A stretch of DNA of 64,000 bases, from the NCBI GenBank assembly GCA_903907995.1, contig CAIVQH010000041.1, forward strand, positions 124,001 to 188,000, written 5' to 3'. Below, in pieces: positions 24,301 through 64,000 of this stretch. Position 1 is the stretch's first letter, and each line of letters starts with the position of its first letter. Source of the stretch: an uncultured Verrucomicrobiota bacterium (lineage in GTDB: Bacteria; Verrucomicrobiota; Verrucomicrobiia; Limisphaerales; UBA9464). The notes under the pieces are model-generated. The model did no database searches and had not been told where the DNA came from. It was given only the letters and a program-made list of their open reading frames with translations. Both the position numbers and the translations under genes were made by a program.

Positions 24301-25365
24301 GGCCTCCTGACCAAGGTCATGTTCGACAAGAACCCGGATCACGAGTTCTACATCGAGGAAAGCTTCCCGCTGAAGTGGATGTACCCCCACCTCGTCCCCT
24401 ACGGCATCATCATGAAAATCGAGCGCAATCCGGCCCCCGATCTCACGGCGGACCAGATTCGCCGCGATCATGAGTTCTGGAGCCAGTATTCCGCCCGCCT
24501 CATCGGCAACTGGATCACCTACGACACCCCGATCAAGGACGTCTGCGCCTTTGCGCTCCGCACCTATCAGCAACGTGAGCTGAAAGGCTTCACCGGCGAC
24601 CCGAAGTTTGTCCGGGATGACAATGCGCAGAAGTCCTTCAGCAAGCTGCGCAATGCCCAGGGCAAGAGCATCTACGCCTGGCGTTCCCAGACCGCGACCA
24701 ATCCGGTGCAGCAGCAGCTCTACCTCAAGGAGGCCGAGTTCGCCCTGAAGCAGGCATTTGCCTTTTGTCCTTACAGCCCGGAAACCGTGTTCAACCTCGC
24801 CTCCCTGCTCGCTTCCACGGGCCGGCAGGAGGATGCCTACCTGGTGGCCAGCACCTGCTACGAGTTCGACAAGGACAATGCCGGCGTCCGCGATCTCGTC
24901 CGGCAATTGGAACGCATGCGTGGCCCAGCCGGCCAGCCCACCGCCGCCACGTCCGCCTCCTCGGCGGCCGTCCCACCGGGCGCGCTTCAATCCGCCGCGC
25001 TGCTGTATCAGTCAGGCCGCACGAACGAGGCCATCGCCGCGCTGGATTCAATGCTGACGAACAACGATGCCAACACGCTCCTCCAGCTGGCCGAGGGCTA
25101 CCGGGAGCTGGGCCGGGCCGACCGCATGGAGGCCGCCCTGCTCCGCCTTTCCCAGGTGATGCCCGATCATCCCGAGACGTGGCTGAACCTGGCCATGGTG
25201 CAGGCTTCGCTCGGCAAAATCACCGAGGCCAATGCCTCCTTGGAAACCTGCTTCCGCCTGAGCGACGCCCGGCTGGCCAAGAACCCGAAGGCGGAAAACA
25301 TCCGTAAGGATTTCCAGACCAACTCCCGCTTCGACCAGGCCCGCGCCTGGTTCAAGGCAAAATGA
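21331..25365 (+). CDS. DUF2723 membrane protein with C-terminal TPR region
   Basis: 1344 residues. The N-terminus carries the DUF2723 signature: multiple membrane helices, LTFLIATLIVLAGYLYTIAP, the acidic DLTLEDSGELAVGSMYAGVP and HPPGYPVWTIYTWAFTKLIP. This layout is shared with GT-C glycosyltransferases, where the Asp/Glu in the first loop is catalytic. About ten further helices are followed by a large soluble region. TPR-like units lie near the end (ALLYQSGRTNEAIAALDSML and MPDHPETWLNLAMVQASLGK). It may transfer a sugar from a lipid carrier to an extracellular acceptor; this is inferred from the family. It follows the ECF sigma/membrane-protein pair by 33 bp. Confidence 0.88.
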   Translation: MSKSKSLPGKGAANASRPPVPPLEAVQAEPAKPAPLFRRVDWLTFLIATLIVLAGYLYTIAPDLTLEDSGELAVGSMYAGVPHPPGYPVWTIYTWAFTKLIPFSNIAFRVAVSSAVAAAISAGLVGLLISRGSSMILESIDLFKSLERRWENPLCMVSGLVGALLLGFNGYIWSQAVIVEVYTLAVLTFMAMLTCLLRWMYAPHQRRYLYLALFLFGLCFCNHQTLIVAAVGIEVAVIAASPKLGRDFFFGNALFYALVITGRAFGFLGILADNPGVFFIFNLIGIGSLATAYAFSGELSRQARLWITGIVTGLLLLLYFKYHFAGNTAASLSAQAGQFVAQGKSSEAERLIRDLQGYESTAITGLKLLAIALMVAIAGLFGLSYGTEKQKRLLAYWWPAIACGLCFAAGALFYFYMPLSSMSNPPMNWGYPRTWKGFIHAFTRGQYEKTNPSIDIITLGKQIAMYAQGCKEEFNWANLLVGLVPFAFLNRMKRRERGWIIGLTGIYVCLALLLLVLLNPGVDRQSRELVKVFFTSSHVVIALAIGYGISLIGALILTRFEEVRWPLFIGGFAAFAFNLYELGTVWNDSQFTILRVAAAISVLISVGFLIFVFLRQQKSFFTPFLALFLLIPTDAILSHWGDNEQRHHYFGFWFGHDMFEPGADTSAAPAPKDKDGKPLYPSMARDAVLYGGTDPGRFCPTYMIFCESFIPAKDRRDPNFDRRDVVLITQNALADDTYLDYIRAHYNRSAQSDPPFFYDMLNDANSVARGRTNALASLAAPLDRFFTKLGANIEKERRAGSSFFQPSQITDLKAFQARLHGTPMAPAKQPDLNTARLKTPPDSAALSAYLRQRLGAAADGDAKTLTDALNKLIDGPSLYDDPKRFNGIPLSDRMLSFAAQNPNTPNRVRLNRLLLEEAYPDLIAPSEGGLYPDREIQTATLEDLSRSFTEYSTDAARRYSQGQLEPGEIVTPLQDGRVSVSGQIAVMAINGLLTKVMFDKNPDHEFYIEESFPLKWMYPHLVPYGIIMKIERNPAPDLTADQIRRDHEFWSQYSARLIGNWITYDTPIKDVCAFALRTYQQRELKGFTGDPKFVRDDNAQKSFSKLRNAQGKSIYAWRSQTATNPVQQQLYLKEAEFALKQAFAFCPYSPETVFNLASLLASTGRQEDAYLVASTCYEFDKDNAGVRDLVRQLERMRGPAGQPTAATSASSAAVPPGALQSAALLYQSGRTNEAIAALDSMLTNNDANTLLQLAEGYRELGRADRMEAALLRLSQVMPDHPETWLNLAMVQASLGKITEANASLETCFRLSDARLAKNPKAENIRKDFQTNSRFDQARAWFKAK

Positions 25366-25477
25366 CCAGTAAGCCGGTGATCAGTAAATCGGTGGTCAGT
25401 AACCAGCGCTGAGGCGGAAGCCATCCCTGATGAGTGGCAGGCACTGTTCACTGTTTCACTGATTACTGATTACTGAC
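25366..25477. repeat. Inverted pair of heptamer arrays (CAGTAAN / ACTGATT)
   Basis: Just after the DUF2723 stop come ccagtaagccggtgatcagt and related units (to about 25405). About 40 unique bases later come the complementary-strand units cactgtt, cactgtt, and actgatt repeated (25443-25477). The two halves can pair into an imperfect stem. Confidence 0.75.
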
Positions 25478-27173: not shown

Positions 27174-27353
27174 GGCGAGTTGCGAATTTCGAATTACGAA
27201 TTCAAACGACCGCGAAAGGCGGGAGGGCGGGTCTGAGTTTTCGGTTTTCGGTTTTCGGTTTTCAGTGATCAATGGGTGAAATCAAATCCGGTCGCACCCT
27301 GCTCGTCATTCGCAATTCGAAACTCGTCATTCGTAATTCGTAATTCGAAATTT
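27174..27353. repeat. Composite heptamer array (GAATTAC, TTCGGTT, AATTCGT)
   Basis: Eight bases after the gpsA stop comes gcgagttgcgaatttcgaat and more. TTCGGTT is repeated three times at 27240-27260. At 27301-27353 the reverse complements of the first family follow (attcgta units). The array ends 3 bp before the thrB ATG, occupying the place of a ribosome binding site. First and third parts form an inverted pair. Confidence 0.85.
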
Positions 27354-33992: not shown

Positions 33993-34034
33993 TCACTGCT
34001 CACTGATTACTGATTACTGATTACTGATCACTCG
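33993..34034. repeat. Heptamer array, unit TTACTGA
   Basis: Six consecutive units: tcactgc, tcactga, ttactga three times, tcactcg. It ends 20 bp before the rpiB stop. Confidence 0.9.
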
Positions 34035-34500: not shown

Positions 34501-35037
34501 CGGCGCCGAGCATGCGCCCGTCGGACCCGGAAGGCAAAACAACCAAGAATCGAAGGCGCAAAGCCCGGATTGCCATAATCATCATAGGAGTCTTCATCGC
34601 CACTTCGTTCCGTGCCTGGTTCTAGGGTCTCCTTTTGCCTTCCCACGATTCGGAAAATCCCAAAGGGATTGGATCATTCAGCCCAGGGTTGGACCGCAGG
34701 GTGGGCCTACCCTGGGGTTTCCGGCGAAAGTAATTTCAACCCCATCGGGGTTGCATCGGGCTTCGGAGCGGAATGGCTTCATCTCCTTCAGAGATGGGCA
34801 TGATTTGCGCGGGTAACCCAGCGTAGCCTGACTGCGTCACGCAACGCTGGGCTGAATGATGCAATCCCGTTGGGATAGGGTCTCACCGGGATGCGCGTTG
34901 CTTCCCAACTCATCCTTCAAACAAAAGACCAAGGAACGAAGCCCCCATGTCGAAGACGCCCCACCGACATCTTCCGGGTAACTCCATTCCTTGGTTGATA
35001 AGCCTTTCGGGCCGCCATGGGCCGCCATTGCTTCTGC
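34501..35037. other. Gene-free spacer with an inverted-repeat element
   Basis: No protein gene is supported. A short plus-strand frame (34612-34803) is an accidental reading of the repeat element at 34657-34876. The rest shows no recognisable feature. Confidence 0.6.
34657..34876. repeat. 220-bp nested-hairpin inverted-repeat element
   Basis: Outer arms 34657-34690 and 34843-34876 are near reverse complements; both contain GGATT(G)-CATCATTCAGCCCAG-type sequence. Inside are small perfect hairpins: AATCCC-AAA-GGGATT, CAACCCC-ATC-GGGGTTG, CATCTC-CTTCA-GAGATG and ATCCC-GTT-GGGAT. It is probably a miniature dispersed element with a folded RNA or single-strand form, unrelated in sequence to the GCGTCTTGGA family. 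Confidence 0.8.
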
Positions 35038-36678: not shown

Positions 36679-36727
36679 GAGTTACGAGTTACGAGTTGCG
36701 AGTTGCGAGTTGCGAGTTAGGAGTTCC
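36679..36727. repeat. Heptamer array, unit GAGTTAC/GAGTTGC
   Basis: Seven consecutive 7-nt units: gagttac twice, gagttgc three times, gagttag, gagttcc, starting 3 bp after the Vsr stop. A second family, CTCCCCG, follows at about 36772-36795 next to the transporter stop. Confidence 0.92.
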
Positions 36728-36800
36728 GGAATTGCAGACCGCTCGTCACCCGTCCCCTCTTCGCTGGTTCGCCGCTCCCCGCTCCCCGCTCCGCGCTTCC

Positions 36801-37745
36801 CTACAGTCCCACCGCTTTCATCCCGAGGCGCAGCCAGAAGGGGATGGTGATGAAACCCACGAGGGAGGTGCCTATCACGATGCGGACGGCGGTGAGTGAG
36901 TCACCCCCATAATGGCGTGCGAGTACGATGGGGAACACGGCCGCGGGCATGGCAGCCTGCACGACCAGGACCTCCTTCAGCTCCTTGGAGACCGGAAGGA
37001 AGTACGCGATCAACAGCATGAAGACCGGCAGGATTCCGAGGCGCACCACGCAGCTCCAGATGAGCGTGCGCAGGCCGAGTTCCTGCCGCAGCTCCCGCGA
37101 GGAATCCGCGAGCGTCGCGCCAATGAGCACGATGCCGAGCGGAAAGCAGCACGCCCCCAGCATGTGCGCAGTGGTAAGGGTAAATTTCGGCAGCCATTCC
37201 CCTGCCCCGATAACGTTCAGCCCGAGGGCCACCACCACGGCGATGATCGGGGCATTGATCAGGCGCCCCCATTCACGCCAGCCGCCCCGCCCGAGGGCAA
37301 TCAGGCAGAGCGTCCACATGGCGGTGTCCACGCCGAGATTGTGGACGAAGAGCACGCCGGTGGTATTGCCCGGAAAGAGCTGCTCGACCAGCGGCAGCGG
37401 CACGTAGCCGTAGTTCTGAATGCCCGTGGTGGCCGCAAAGGTGCGCTGCACGGCGTCGCCCTTGAGCCCGGTCCGGCGGCGCAGCAGCCAGCAGAGGCCA
37501 ACTCCGAGCGCCACGCCACCAAACCCAAGGACCGGCGGCAGAAAAAGATTCTCCGGCCGGCGCAGGGCGGCATTGCCGAGCACCTTGTCGAGGATGAGCG
37601 CGGGCGTGAGGACGTTGACGACGACGCGCATGAGGCTGGCGTCGGCCTCCTCAGTGAGCCACTCCACCTTGCGCAGCACCACGCCGACCACCGCGAGACA
37701 GAAGACGGGGAGGACGGCGGAAAGGACGGTGTAGAACTCGTTCAC
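36801..37745 (-). CDS. AEC-family transporter
   Basis: A 314-residue polytopic membrane protein of the auxin efflux carrier family, two sets of five helices. Evidence is YTVLSAVLPVFCLAVVGVVL at the start, FAATTGIQNYGYVPLPLVEQ with the conserved Asn/Gly break in the first repeat, and VVQAAMPAAVFPIVLARHYG in the second. The family exports small carboxylates or amino-acid-like compounds; the substrate is unknown. It starts with GTG and overlaps the stop of the 188-residue gene upstream, so they are co-translated. Confidence 0.9.
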   Translation of the reverse strand: MNEFYTVLSAVLPVFCLAVVGVVLRKVEWLTEEADASLMRVVVNVLTPALILDKVLGNAALRRPENLFLPPVLGFGGVALGVGLCWLLRRRTGLKGDAVQRTFAATTGIQNYGYVPLPLVEQLFPGNTTGVLFVHNLGVDTAMWTLCLIALGRGGWREWGRLINAPIIAVVVALGLNVIGAGEWLPKFTLTTAHMLGACCFPLGIVLIGATLADSSRELRQELGLRTLIWSCVVRLGILPVFMLLIAYFLPVSKELKEVLVVQAAMPAAVFPIVLARHYGGDSLTAVRIVIGTSLVGFITIPFWLRLGMKAVGL

Positions 37746-45324: not shown

Positions 45325-45401
45325 GACGGCCGGAAGCTAGCGGCTGCCGCGTAAATCTCCAACTGCCAAGCGACAGTTTTCCGAGGCAGGCCAGCAAACG
45401 G

Positions 45402-45551
45402 TAATCAGTGGGTCAGTAATCAGTGAGCCAGTGTGTGAGGGAGGGAGAAAGAGGGTGGAGGTGCAAGGAACGGTCAGACAAGGGGAGTGGGCGATCGCCA
45501 TTCCCTGTTCCCTGTTCACTGATTACTGATTACTGCATCACTGATCACTGG
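45402..45551. repeat. Inverted pair of ACTGATT heptamer arrays
   Basis: Left half about 45402-45433 (taatcag, gtcagtaatcagtgagccag). Right half 45503-45551 with seven strict units: ccctgtt twice, cactgat, tactgat, tactgca, tcactga, tcactgg. About 70 unique bases separate them. The right half includes the stop codon of the HxlR gene. Confidence 0.88.
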
Positions 45552-57849: not shown

Positions 57850-57883
57850 TTCCCTAAAGCTTCCGCATCCGACATCTCCCTGC

Positions 57884-57940
57884 TTCGCGTCTTCGCGTCT
57901 TGGCTGTTTTCTTTCCGGCTCCCCGCTCCCCGCTCCGCGC
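57884..57940. repeat. CTTCGCGT octamer and CTCCCCG heptamer repeats
   Basis: cttcgcgt, cttcgcgt, cttggc (57884-57905), then ctccccg, ctccccg, ctccgcg just before the DUF1501 ATG at 57945. Confidence 0.6.
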
Positions 57941-57944
57941 TTCT

Positions 57945-61631: not shown

Positions 61632-62969
61632 ATGCTCACCATTCCTGGCCAATCAAAGCGGTTCTGTGACGGGTTTTCGCGCCGCAATTTCCTGCGCATC
61701 GGCGCGTTGGGCATGGGTGGATTGGCGCTGCCACAATTGCTCCAGGCTGAGGCTGCGTCCGGCCTCCGTTCCGGCCACAAGGCGGTCATCATGATCTACC
61801 TGCCGGGCGGGCCGCCGCACCAGGACACCTTTGATCTCAAGATGGACGCCCCGGCGGAAATCCGGGGCGAGTTCAAACCAATCCCTACCAGCGTCCCCGG
61901 CTTCCAGATCTGCGAACATCTGCCGCGCCTCGCGAAGTGCGCGGACCAGTATGCCCTCATCCGTTCCCTGTCGGACGCGGTGGATGACCACTCGGACTTC
62001 ATGTGCCAGACCGGCCGTCGCAAGAACCAGCAGCCACCGGGCGGCTGGCCCTCGTTTGGCTCGTGTGTCTCGCGCGTTCTGGGCGCGGCGGATCCGGCGG
62101 TGCCCGCCTTTGTCGGCCTCGAACCCCGGATGCAGCACCGGCCTTATAACGCCGCCACCGCCGGCTATGCGGGTGTGGCGCACGATGCTTTCCGGCCCGC
62201 CGCCGACGCCAAGTCCGACATGGTGCTCAACGGCATCACTACGGACCGCCTCGCCGACCGTCGTTCGCTGCTGACCGCCTTCGACAAGTTTCGCCGCGAC
62301 GTAGATGCCAGCGGCCTGATGTCCGGGCTCGATGGCTTCAATGAACAGGCCTTCGGCATGCTCACCTCGAGCCGGCTGCTCGAGGCGCTGAGCGTCGAAA
62401 AGGAATCCGCCGCGCTCCGTGAGCGCTACGGCAAGGGCGACATCAAAGTTCACGGCGACGCCGCGCCGATGATGAACGAGCAGTTCCTCGTGGCCCGCCG
62501 CCTGGTCGAGGCTGGTGCCCGCTTCGTGACGGTCGCCTACGGCTTCTGGGATTATCACGGCAACAACTTCGGCAATGCCCGCAATGACCTGCCGATGCTC
62601 GATCAGGGCGTAAGCGCGCTGCTGGAAGATTTGAAGCAGCGCGGCCTCGACAAGGACGTCAGCGTGCTGATGTGGAGCGAATTTGGCCGTTCCCCCACGA
62701 TTAACAAGGACGCCGGCCGCGACCACTGGCCGCGCGCCAACTGCGCCCTGCTCGCCGGCGGCGGCATGAAGGTCGGCCAGGTCATCGGTGCCACCGACCG
62801 CCTCGGCGGCGAACCGAGCGAGCGCCCGGTGCAATACGGCGAAGTGTTCGCCACGCTGTACCAGAACCTCGGCATCGACGTGAACAAGGTGACGATCCCC
62901 GACCTCACGGGCCGCCCGCAATATCTCGTCCCCGACGGCTGCCAGCCCATGAAGGAACTCGTGGGATGA
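61632..62969 (+). CDS. DUF1501 protein (third)
   Basis: About 445 residues from ATG 61632 with a Tat signal ([20 protein letters not shown]). It shares the landmarks of the second copy: [60 protein letters not shown] and the end [20 protein letters not shown]. The His pair in WDHH of the other copies is WDYH here, a change at a likely metal or active site. A cassette with a GxxExxY gene follows directly. Confidence 0.92.
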   Translation: MLTIPGQSKRFCDGFSRRNFLRIGALGMGGLALPQLLQAEAASGLRSGHKAVIMIYLPGGPPHQDTFDLKMDAPAEIRGEFKPIPTSVPGFQICEHLPRLAKCADQYALIRSLSDAVDDHSDFMCQTGRRKNQQPPGGWPSFGSCVSRVLGAADPAVPAFVGLEPRMQHRPYNAATAGYAGVAHDAFRPAADAKSDMVLNGITTDRLADRRSLLTAFDKFRRDVDASGLMSGLDGFNEQAFGMLTSSRLLEALSVEKESAALRERYGKGDIKVHGDAAPMMNEQFLVARRLVEAGARFVTVAYGFWDYHGNNFGNARNDLPMLDQGVSALLEDLKQRGLDKDVSVLMWSEFGRSPTINKDAGRDHWPRANCALLAGGGMKVGQVIGATDRLGGEPSERPVQYGEVFATLYQNLGIDVNKVTIPDLTGRPQYLVPDGCQPMKELVG

Positions 62970-62980
62970 AGAAGACGGGA

Positions 62981-63133
62981 ATGAACAACGAAGACGCAAA
63001 GACGCGAAGAGAAAGCTCAAGGAACCAAGCCTGATGCCAGCCCCGCCCAACACCCTCTCGCCCTGCTTCGTGCCTTTGCGTCTTTGTTGTTTTCTTCTCG
63101 GAATGAACGACGAAGGCGTTAAGGCGCGAATGG
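62981..63133. repeat. Left flank of the GxxExxY cassette: GAAGACGC octamers in both orientations
   Basis: Forward copy 62981-63012 (tgaacaacgaagacgcaaag, then acgcgaag; 8-nt period). Reverse copy 63074-63101 (ctttgcgtctttgttgtttt onward). Second forward copy 63101-63133 (gaatgaacgacgaaggcgtt, then aaggcgcgaa) ending just before the GxxExxY start. Confidence 0.82.
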
Positions 63134-63141
63134 GACAATGA

Positions 63142-63582
63142 ATGATGCCCTTGGCGTTTCCAGAACAGCCGTTGAGGAAGGTGAACGTATCACCGGAAGT
63201 CGAAGCGCTGGCCTCGGTGGCAGTTCGCGCTGCCTTCGATGTTCACAAGGAACTAGGTGCGGGCTTGCTGGAGAACGTTTATGAGGCGGCGTTTGCCCAT
63301 GAACTGGAATTGCGCGGTGTTCGCCATAAGCGACAAGTGCCAATCTCAGTCACCTATAAAGGACGGGGTATGGACCTCGGTTTTCGGGCTGACGTCATTT
63401 TGGAAGAAAGGCTCTTGGTCGAATTGAAAGCCGTCGAACAAGTCATCCCGGTGCATAAGGCACAGGTTATCACTTATCTGAAAATCCTGAATTTCCCGCT
63501 TGGACTGCTCATCAATTTCAACGAAGTCCTGATTAAAAACGGCATCGATCGTGTCCTGAACCTCAATCATCGCATTTCTTAG
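63142..63582 (+). CDS. GxxExxY protein
   Basis: 146 residues. The defining motif is ELGAGLLENVYEAAFAHEL (Gly41, Glu44, Tyr47). It is followed by MDLGFRADVILEERLLVELK, where Asp84 and Glu94-x-Lys96 fit a PD-(D/E)XK nuclease core, and LKILNFPLGLLINFNE near the end. The family is small, sporadically distributed and of unknown function. The gene is bracketed by inverted copies of an 8-nt-period repeat and interrupts an array of DUF1501 genes, which suggests it is a mobile or transmitted cassette. Confidence 0.92.
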   Translation: MMPLAFPEQPLRKVNVSPEVEALASVAVRAAFDVHKELGAGLLENVYEAAFAHELELRGVRHKRQVPISVTYKGRGMDLGFRADVILEERLLVELKAVEQVIPVHKAQVITYLKILNFPLGLLINFNEVLIKNGIDRVLNLNHRIS

Positions 63583-63610
63583 CGCCTTCGCGTCTTTGTT
63601 GTTCAACTCC
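63583..63610. repeat. Right flank of the GxxExxY cassette (inverted copy)
   Basis: cgccttcgcgtctttgttgt and eight more bases fill the whole 28-bp gap from the GxxExxY stop to the next ATG. It is the reverse complement of the left-flank sequence (gaacaacaaagacgcgaagg type). Confidence 0.85.
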
Positions 63611-64000
63611 ATGCTGACCATCCCCGGCAACTCCCACAGCCCCTTTTGCGATGGCCATTCGCGGCGCGACTTCCTGCGCATTGGTGGACTGGCAATGGGT
63701 GGCTTGGCGCTGCCGCAACTGCTCCAGGCCGAACAGCTCTCGGGAATCCGCAAGTCACATAAGGCGGTCATCATGATCTATCTGGTCGGCGCCCCGCCGC
63801 ATCAGGACATGTTCGACCTGAAGATGGACGCGCCGCTGGAGATCCGCGGCCCGCACAAGCCGCGCGTGACCAACGTGCCCGGCATCGAGATTTCCGAGCA
63901 CATGCCATACTGCGCCCGGATTATGGACAAGCTCGTCCCGATCCGCACGATGTACGGCTCGCCCAGCGGGGACCACGACTCCTTCATTTGCTACACCGGC
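63611..64000 (+). CDS. DUF1501 protein (fourth, 3' partial)
   Basis: 130 codons to the right edge. Tat signal (GHSRRDFLRIGGLAMGGLAL) and [20 protein letters not shown] mark it as a close relative of the second and third copies; IEISEHMPYCARIMDKLVPI, then RTMYGS and GDHDSFICYTG follow. The gene continues beyond the window. Confidence 0.9.
   Translation, partial: MLTIPGNSHSPFCDGHSRRDFLRIGGLAMGGLALPQLLQAEQLSGIRKSHKAVIMIYLVGAPPHQDMFDLKMDAPLEIRGPHKPRVTNVPGIEISEHMPYCARIMDKLVPIRTMYGSPSGDHDSFICYTG

Follow-up and report, generated by a model that had tools for sequence, protein, structure and literature searches.

The DNA analyzed here, a stretch of 64,000 nucleotides that we call the window, comes from a Verrucomicrobiota genome of 5.1 Mb in 60 contigs and includes an array of DUF1501 genes, the third of which ends with its stop codon at position 62969 and the fourth of which begins with an ATG at 63611. 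Between them lies a 641-nt block (62970 to 63610) carrying a gene for a GxxExxY protein of 146 amino acids with a predicted PD-(D/E)XK nuclease fold (63142 to 63582, forward strand), in agreement with the placement given in the original prediction. That prediction also held that inverted copies of a repeat with an 8-nt period surround the gene; the period at this locus is indeed 8 nt, and a scan with the full, ungapped 26-nt arm at up to 7 mismatches located six arms, four at the block and two alone, with none found in the reversed window used as a control at the same setting. The lone arms lie upstream of the first DUF1501 gene (57883 to 57908, reverse strand) and, as a weak match with 5 mismatches of 26, at 34538 to 34563 (forward strand). 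Three copies of alternating orientation precede the gene, just as described (62984 to 63009, forward; 63066 to 63091, reverse; and a degenerate copy at 63106 to 63131, forward, with 6 mismatches to the query arm). The first two are 88% complementary and make up a complete gene-less hairpin (62984 to 63091), and the third is the left arm of a gene-carrying unit that follows (63106 to 63603), so that the block is a composite; positions 63100 to 63130 are a direct repeat (84%) of 62978 to 63008. The right flank, said to take up the whole spacer, holds one arm (63578 to 63603, reverse strand) that overlaps the GxxExxY stop codon and runs into the 28-nt spacer before the fourth DUF1501 start (63583 to 63610).

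An empty site in related genomes had been proposed as a check on mobility, and one is present in two genomes of the same genus. The spacer between the flanking DUF1501 genes is 641 nt in the window genome versus 16 nt in G147 (93% identical), and it is also 16 nt in G148 (83% identical); in both relatives it is a plain spacer with no arm visible. The breakpoints against these genomes coincide with the edges of the block, which, judged from this sequence comparison, is an insertion, and because two relatives lack it, gain in the window's lineage is the simpler reading. A third genome, G149, has a decayed copy of the window element immediately after a different DUF1501 gene in the array (81% DNA identity over 104 nt), in which GGGAATGAACAACGA of the left end is joined to C-terminal codons. 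A second empty site was found at another GxxExxY locus of the window genome, L003, which measures 992 nt there versus 28 nt in G147, where the site reads TTTTTAACCA, near the element end TTTTTGAACCA (one case).

Of eleven sites at which the window genome was set against G147, only these two (the window locus and L003) gave clean empty sites. Four hold a hairpin in both genomes (L006, L007, L008, and L014), four have other DNA in the slot (L005, the hairpin at L206:1063, L013, and L001), and at L004 G147 keeps the left arm only. Reoccupied slots include hairpins with interiors that differ between the two genomes, and the L001 slot holds a GxxExxY gene in the window genome (G000) versus a 23S_rRNA_IVP gene in G147 (PF05635, 5e-27) between short-period repeats of its own. 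The converse comparison, in which the GxxExxY locus of G147 (L252) was sought in the window genome, gave no clean empty site; an unrelated ORF occupies that slot (G000:C10:10939-11454). By eye, an apparent C-terminal GxxExxY fragment lies beside the GxxExxY gene of G147. The left arms of L004, L006, L007, and L008 read GGAAC in G147 versus mainly GGCGC in the window genome, with right arms that are not uniform and with CGC kept at L014; the one GxxExxY gene in G147 is of another flavor than these arms, and this parallel change remains unexplained.

By curated cutoffs, the window gene is a member of the GxxExxY family, a family named by motif and fold: it scores 130.5 bits against TIGR04256 (cutoff, 35) and 130.6 bits against PF13366 (PDDEXK_3; cutoff, 22), the only Pfam model matched. 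The putative active-site set is intact (E44, D84, E94-x-K96, Q108, and Y112); across the family, 188 of 189 proteins have E44/D84/[ED]94/K96 in full and 183 also have Q108 and Y112, with the caveat that conservation of E44 was partly selected, a GxxE-like motif having been required for 123 of the 189 when the strand was set. The AF2 model (pLDDT, 92.9) has as its best structural match SSO0001 (Z 9.2, VIA), which we take to be Cas4-type, followed by restriction enzymes and Holliday resolvases at Z of about 6 to 7, a range common for VIA. The fold is, on the evidence of this model, PD-(D/E)XK, and nuclease activity is inferred. Foldseek alone returned no row at an E value of ≤0.001, and a profile of alignment A3 found no match among PDB sequences at an E value of ≤1. 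Of five gene pairs, all had more synonymous than nonsynonymous change, with a dN/dS of 0.12 in the sole computable pair; synonymous change was saturated in the other four, where pN was below pS. No phage record turned up in a tblastn search with the window protein, alignment A2 recovered 1 locus from viral contigs, and 8 plasmid records were found, all below 60% identity. Assignment to a defense system was rejected, PADLOC having returned nothing beyond weak Cas4 rows at an E value of about 0.01.

The family is widespread, with TIGR04256 matches in 69 of 145 sampled Verrucomicrobiota genomes and at least 578 confirmed relatives recovered by two short peptide patterns in one species-level collection. 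To compare their frames, the left flank of each gene was locally aligned with the reverse complement of its right flank. Scores of ≥18 were reached at 22 of 33 loci in a first set (29 of 1,056 mismatched pairs) and at 12 of 18 in a second (4 of 306); in a set of 80 loci from many phyla, matched arms were found at 47 of 78 versus 351 of 6,006 mismatched pairs, a control raised by CACAGAG/CACGGAG units that recur in different phyla. Two of these 80 loci are in archaeal MAG records, one with arms (L123, score 19.0) and one without (L086, 8.5). Measured against neighboring ORFs, the frame is typical of GxxExxY genes: 104 of 124 had matched arms at a score of ≥14 versus 4 of 135 neighboring ORFs, and 80 versus 2 did so at ≥18 (flank length sufficed at 124 of 131 loci; L017 and L074 are one place counted twice, both below 14, so that the first count is 104 of 123 without the duplicate). 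The four control matches were two further GxxExxY genes, one subthreshold 23S_rRNA_IVP match (7.2e-7, 29.8 bits; cutoff, 33.8), and one ArsR gene. At a score of 14, 20 of 124 GxxExxY genes (about 16%) lack matched arms. In a held-out set, which shares its phylum with part of the discovery set and from which L262 was left out for lack of flank, 60 of 65 loci had matched arms versus 165 of 4,160 mismatched pairs. The median distance from the profile match is 36 nt for the arm ahead of it and 21 nt for the arm behind it (score of ≥16 at 138 loci). The expectation that other GxxExxY loci carry similar flanks is therefore met as far as inverted short-period arms are concerned, which are usual, but not for the repeat sequence itself, since the units differ between genes; the outcome said to refute the original prediction, such flanks around many unrelated genes without enrichment at GxxExxY loci, was not encountered. 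One locus (L046:2486-3715) has two adjacent GxxExxY genes, the second of which, by eye, sits between CCACGGATTGCACAGAT arms that are nested in a longer inverted repeat; its neighbors are presumably recG-like and glutamine-synthetase-like genes.

Each end has three units of about 7 nt, 8 to 11 nt apart and inverted between ends. An alignment of 45 loci without gaps in their arms, anchored at the first unit, gives a family end of TTNAC and then three C[AG]CN[GA]A[GTA] units; the window ends read TGAAC, and the first unit there is AACGAAG. The ends are sharply bounded, with left-right identity in these 45 loci falling from 0.67 at position −5 to 0.40 at −6 and standing at 0.42 at +26 and at no more than 0.42 beyond. 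Unit spacing is 8 to 11 nt (mode, 9), and autocorrelation detected only weak periodicity in these flanks, whose spacing varies over that range. The units match between arms at 1,290 of 1,386 positions versus 147 of 256 (57%, above background) for the linkers, and poor matching of linkers points to recognition of the units by a protein rather than to a perfect stem. No clear target-site duplication was found at 60 family loci for lengths of 2 to 14 nt against mismatched flanks, a result that does not extend to the window's own site, where the spacers have diverged, and a search of eight loci against Rfam at an E value of ≤0.1 gave no match.

The similarity of arms tracks the similarity of the proteins that they enclose (Mantel r of 0.52 for 84 loci, 0 of 2,000 permutations), both within the phylum set (39 loci; r of 0.46, 0 of 2,000) and, less strongly, beyond Verrucomicrobiota (38 loci; r of 0.30, 4 of 2,000). 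A single genome may hold many flavors: in G122, eight different units were present at the eight loci looked at among its 11 GxxExxY loci (L048 being counted despite a weak arm score of 13.5). A scan of some 110 protein columns against four base positions at 84 of 123 loci, from which the best columns were chosen, yielded two associations that were written down ahead of the held-out test. Residue 2 of an N-terminal LTxxIIG motif is associated with base 5 of the unit and a C-terminal xG[ILV] loop with base 7, such that Thr goes with G at base 5 and the loop with G at base 7. Both held in the 42 of 66 held-out loci that gave a unit, with counts of 18,1/6,15 for Thr (G and not G with the residue/without it; Fisher 1.8e-5) and 24,2/2,14 for the loop (Fisher 2.4e-7). 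Over all 126 loci the counts were 36,1/16,67 for Thr (120 usable; 25 parsimony changes, 0 of 2,000 tree simulations) and 37,3/2,84 for the loop (5 changes, 2 of 2,000), on a protein tree built without the two associated columns. The code is not absolute, since proteins without Thr have both G (16) and A (36) at base 5; the sole locus combining Thr with A is L268, where the unit seems to have been taken from an unrelated palindrome. The window protein fits the code, with Ala24 and A at base 5 and with the loop present and G at base 7, although it appears as a gap in the count because its profile match starts at residue 26.

A locus entered the base tables only with an arm score of at least 15 and at least four C[AG]C-type units; 39 of 123 discovery loci and 24 of 66 held-out loci were left out on these grounds. 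Nine of the 24 have ACAGGAT/CAGGAT-type units (L258, L266, L271, L275, L279, L280, L281, L283, and L298), and when framed post hoc on GGAT these have Thr in 8 of 9 and no loop in 9 of 9, as the code predicts. Five loci were dropped because the strand could not be set, and L041 and L266, which are near-identical, are both absent from the tables. Recognition by the protein of the units of its own element is supported by these patterns, with no binding data behind it. The suggestion that the nuclease has a role in its own transmission likewise draws support from the covariation but has not been demonstrated by any assay.

The window genome has three GxxExxY genes, each with its own repeat (GACGCGAA type at the window locus, GGAAAACAGGAAAGCAGG type at L001, and CACGGATTGCACGGAT type at L003), and these repeats are also present without a gene, as hairpins elsewhere in the genome. 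Dispersed paired inverted repeats that lack a gene, as in REPINs, are thereby documented, and at some loci several stand side by side. An exact-pattern count of the window's repeat in its own genome was unconvincing alone (only 12 versus 8 for the reversed pattern); arm pairing read within loci is convincing where such counts were not. The genome-wide arm lists are minima, because the search expression passed over weaker matches ahead of the best one. For one flavor, CACTAAT, triplets were found in 8 of 145 genomes, all with a TIGR04256 match (weak in G076), and G122, which carries such a gene, has 44 exact triplet arms versus 0 for the reversed pattern. At L008 and L014, a hairpin is nested within a hairpin of another flavor, an arrangement kept in both sibling genomes.

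A parallel design is seen in 23S_rRNA_IVP genes, which encode a four-helix bundle (TIGR02436) and occur in 103 of 145 genomes. Their flanks have a clear 7-nt period by autocorrelation, and 20 of 29 have matched inverted arms at a score of ≥14 versus 20 of 812 mismatched pairs (one of 30 loci, incomplete, was dropped). Many such genes can be seen in inverted arms of 7-nt units (L146-L175 and L231:1041-1442), and the window itself has arrays with a 7-nt (or 14- to 15-nt) period at 25363-25476, 27237-27352, 33993-34032, 36679-36801, 45401-45550, and 57918-57941 that resemble the type at four-helix-bundle genes. The IVP family scores weakly against Avd-type models. According to a previous report, the family is known from intervening sequences of 23S rRNA that RNase III excises, for which a mobile-element origin has been proposed and the means of spread left open (PMC4990558).

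We consider it probable that the block at the window locus is a mobile element whose own nuclease recognizes its ends and which has MITE-like derivatives, with cutting and movement inferred; the original proposal of a mobilized unit with repeat termini is supported by the empty sites together with the matched arms at GxxExxY genes. Such an element would comprise a single small PD-(D/E)XK (Cas4/RecB-like) nuclease gene framed by two inverted ends, each given by the family consensus as TTNAC plus three units of about 7 nt roughly one helical turn apart, and the covariation of residues and bases supports recognition by the protein of the units of its own element. By inference, protomers would occupy all three units of each end, draw the two ends together, and cleave at that place, and either the element itself or a copy made in repair would enter end-like sites without target-site duplication. 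Gene-less hairpins with both ends would be mobilized in trans, as MITEs are, and the window element would have entered the DUF1501 gap after its lineage split from the two same-genus relatives.

Because slots are reused, cutting and repair at existing arms may well have a part in this process, and a possible but less favored explanation gives them the whole of it: in homing or gene conversion, the protein would cut preexisting arms, and repair would copy the element or alter the units. The differing contents of reoccupied slots (hairpin interiors, and GxxExxY in G000 versus IVP in G147), the single empty site at L003 that resembles an element end, and the lack of a target-site duplication are all compatible with homing, but it has difficulty with the window site itself, where the plain 16-nt spacer in both relatives has no visible arm. 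It seems unlikely that the hairpins are moved by something else and that GxxExxY is merely cargo between two of them. Gene-less hairpins are common, with several adjacent at some loci, and four-helix-bundle genes without a nuclease have a similar frame, yet arms frame GxxExxY genes and hardly any other neighboring ORF, the unit and residues of the protein between the arms covary over 126 loci, and eight genes in G122 have eight different units.

Two further explanations take the arms to be something other than ends in DNA. The arms could form a transcript hairpin, with a protein that binds RNA and spread by reverse transcription of the stem-loop; their inversion would suit this, as would the parallel with the IVP family, with its weak Avd-type scores and its RNase III-excised intervening sequences (PMC4990558). 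We hold this to be improbable, given that the linkers are poorly matched between arms, if above background, that a 641-nt block has no room for a reverse transcriptase, and that Rfam gave no match in the eight loci searched. There is very little to recommend the idea that homologous recombination moved a nuclease gene and that the arms serve this gene as operators: the protein does appear to read the repeat, but operators would not account for arms at both ends with sharp edges, for gene-less pairs, or for a site from which the entire block is missing.

Among known systems, REPIN-RAYT is, by analogy, the closest to the mobile element proposed here in its way of working, although the enzyme is unrelated. 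In REPIN-RAYT, paired inverted repeats are dispersed and also enclose a nuclease gene, as appears to be the case for the window element; however, RAYT is an HUH/Y1 enzyme and REPs have GTAG-type tags, whereas the window element has a PD-(D/E)XK nuclease and three-unit ends, and GxxExxY genes often occur several to a genome with different units. An HUH/Y1 domain was not found in the window protein, for which Pfam gives only PF13366. MITEs and DDE IS elements pair an autonomous copy with short gene-less derivatives that have the same ends, and the window family likewise has gene copies and gene-less derivatives sharing ends, but the block has no DDE transposase and the family no target-site duplication. 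The fold and the motif order of the window protein are, we presume, those of Cas4/RecB-type PD-(D/E)XK nucleases, from which it differs in standing alone within a repeat frame. Cas4 has four cysteines for an Fe-S cluster; the 146-residue window protein has no cysteine and is therefore not Cas4 proper, nor does it have an iron-sulfur cluster. The 23S rRNA intervening sequences also place a small ORF inside an inverted-repeat frame, but with another protein family, a 7-nt flank period, and a location inside 23S rRNA genes, in contrast to the window element between protein genes. The window gene was also rejected as an IVP protein, since it matches only PF13366.

In the open literature searched, the passages that mention GxxExxY do not concern repeats or mobility, PDDEXK_3 is not mentioned, and the repeat strings occur only in papers on animals. 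We found no description of such an element in this literature, with most subscription papers and bioRxiv preprints outside its scope, and GxxExxY elements look like an undescribed kind of mobile DNA.

If the mobile-element reading is correct, the many bacterial genes labeled only "GxxExxY protein" would be enzymes of an unrecognized class of mobile DNA. We lean, by a modest degree, toward a broader view in which one stand-alone Cas4-like nuclease reads three-unit inverted ends through a residue-base code and thereby splits into many mutually separate lineages within a genome, with the IVP four-helix-bundle protein as the basis of a second class, of like design, that competes for the same slots. 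The N-terminal Thr would then read G, and Ala or Ser allow A, at base 5, the C-terminal loop would read G at base 7, and the whole would amount to a new class of transposable elements in bacteria and archaea. The covariation provides a testable recognition code for a nuclease domain of about 120 residues, and the IVP parallel offers a clue to the spread of 23S rRNA intervening sequences. Together, if this is true, the two classes would account for many of the unexplained short-period hairpins in bacterial intergenic DNA.
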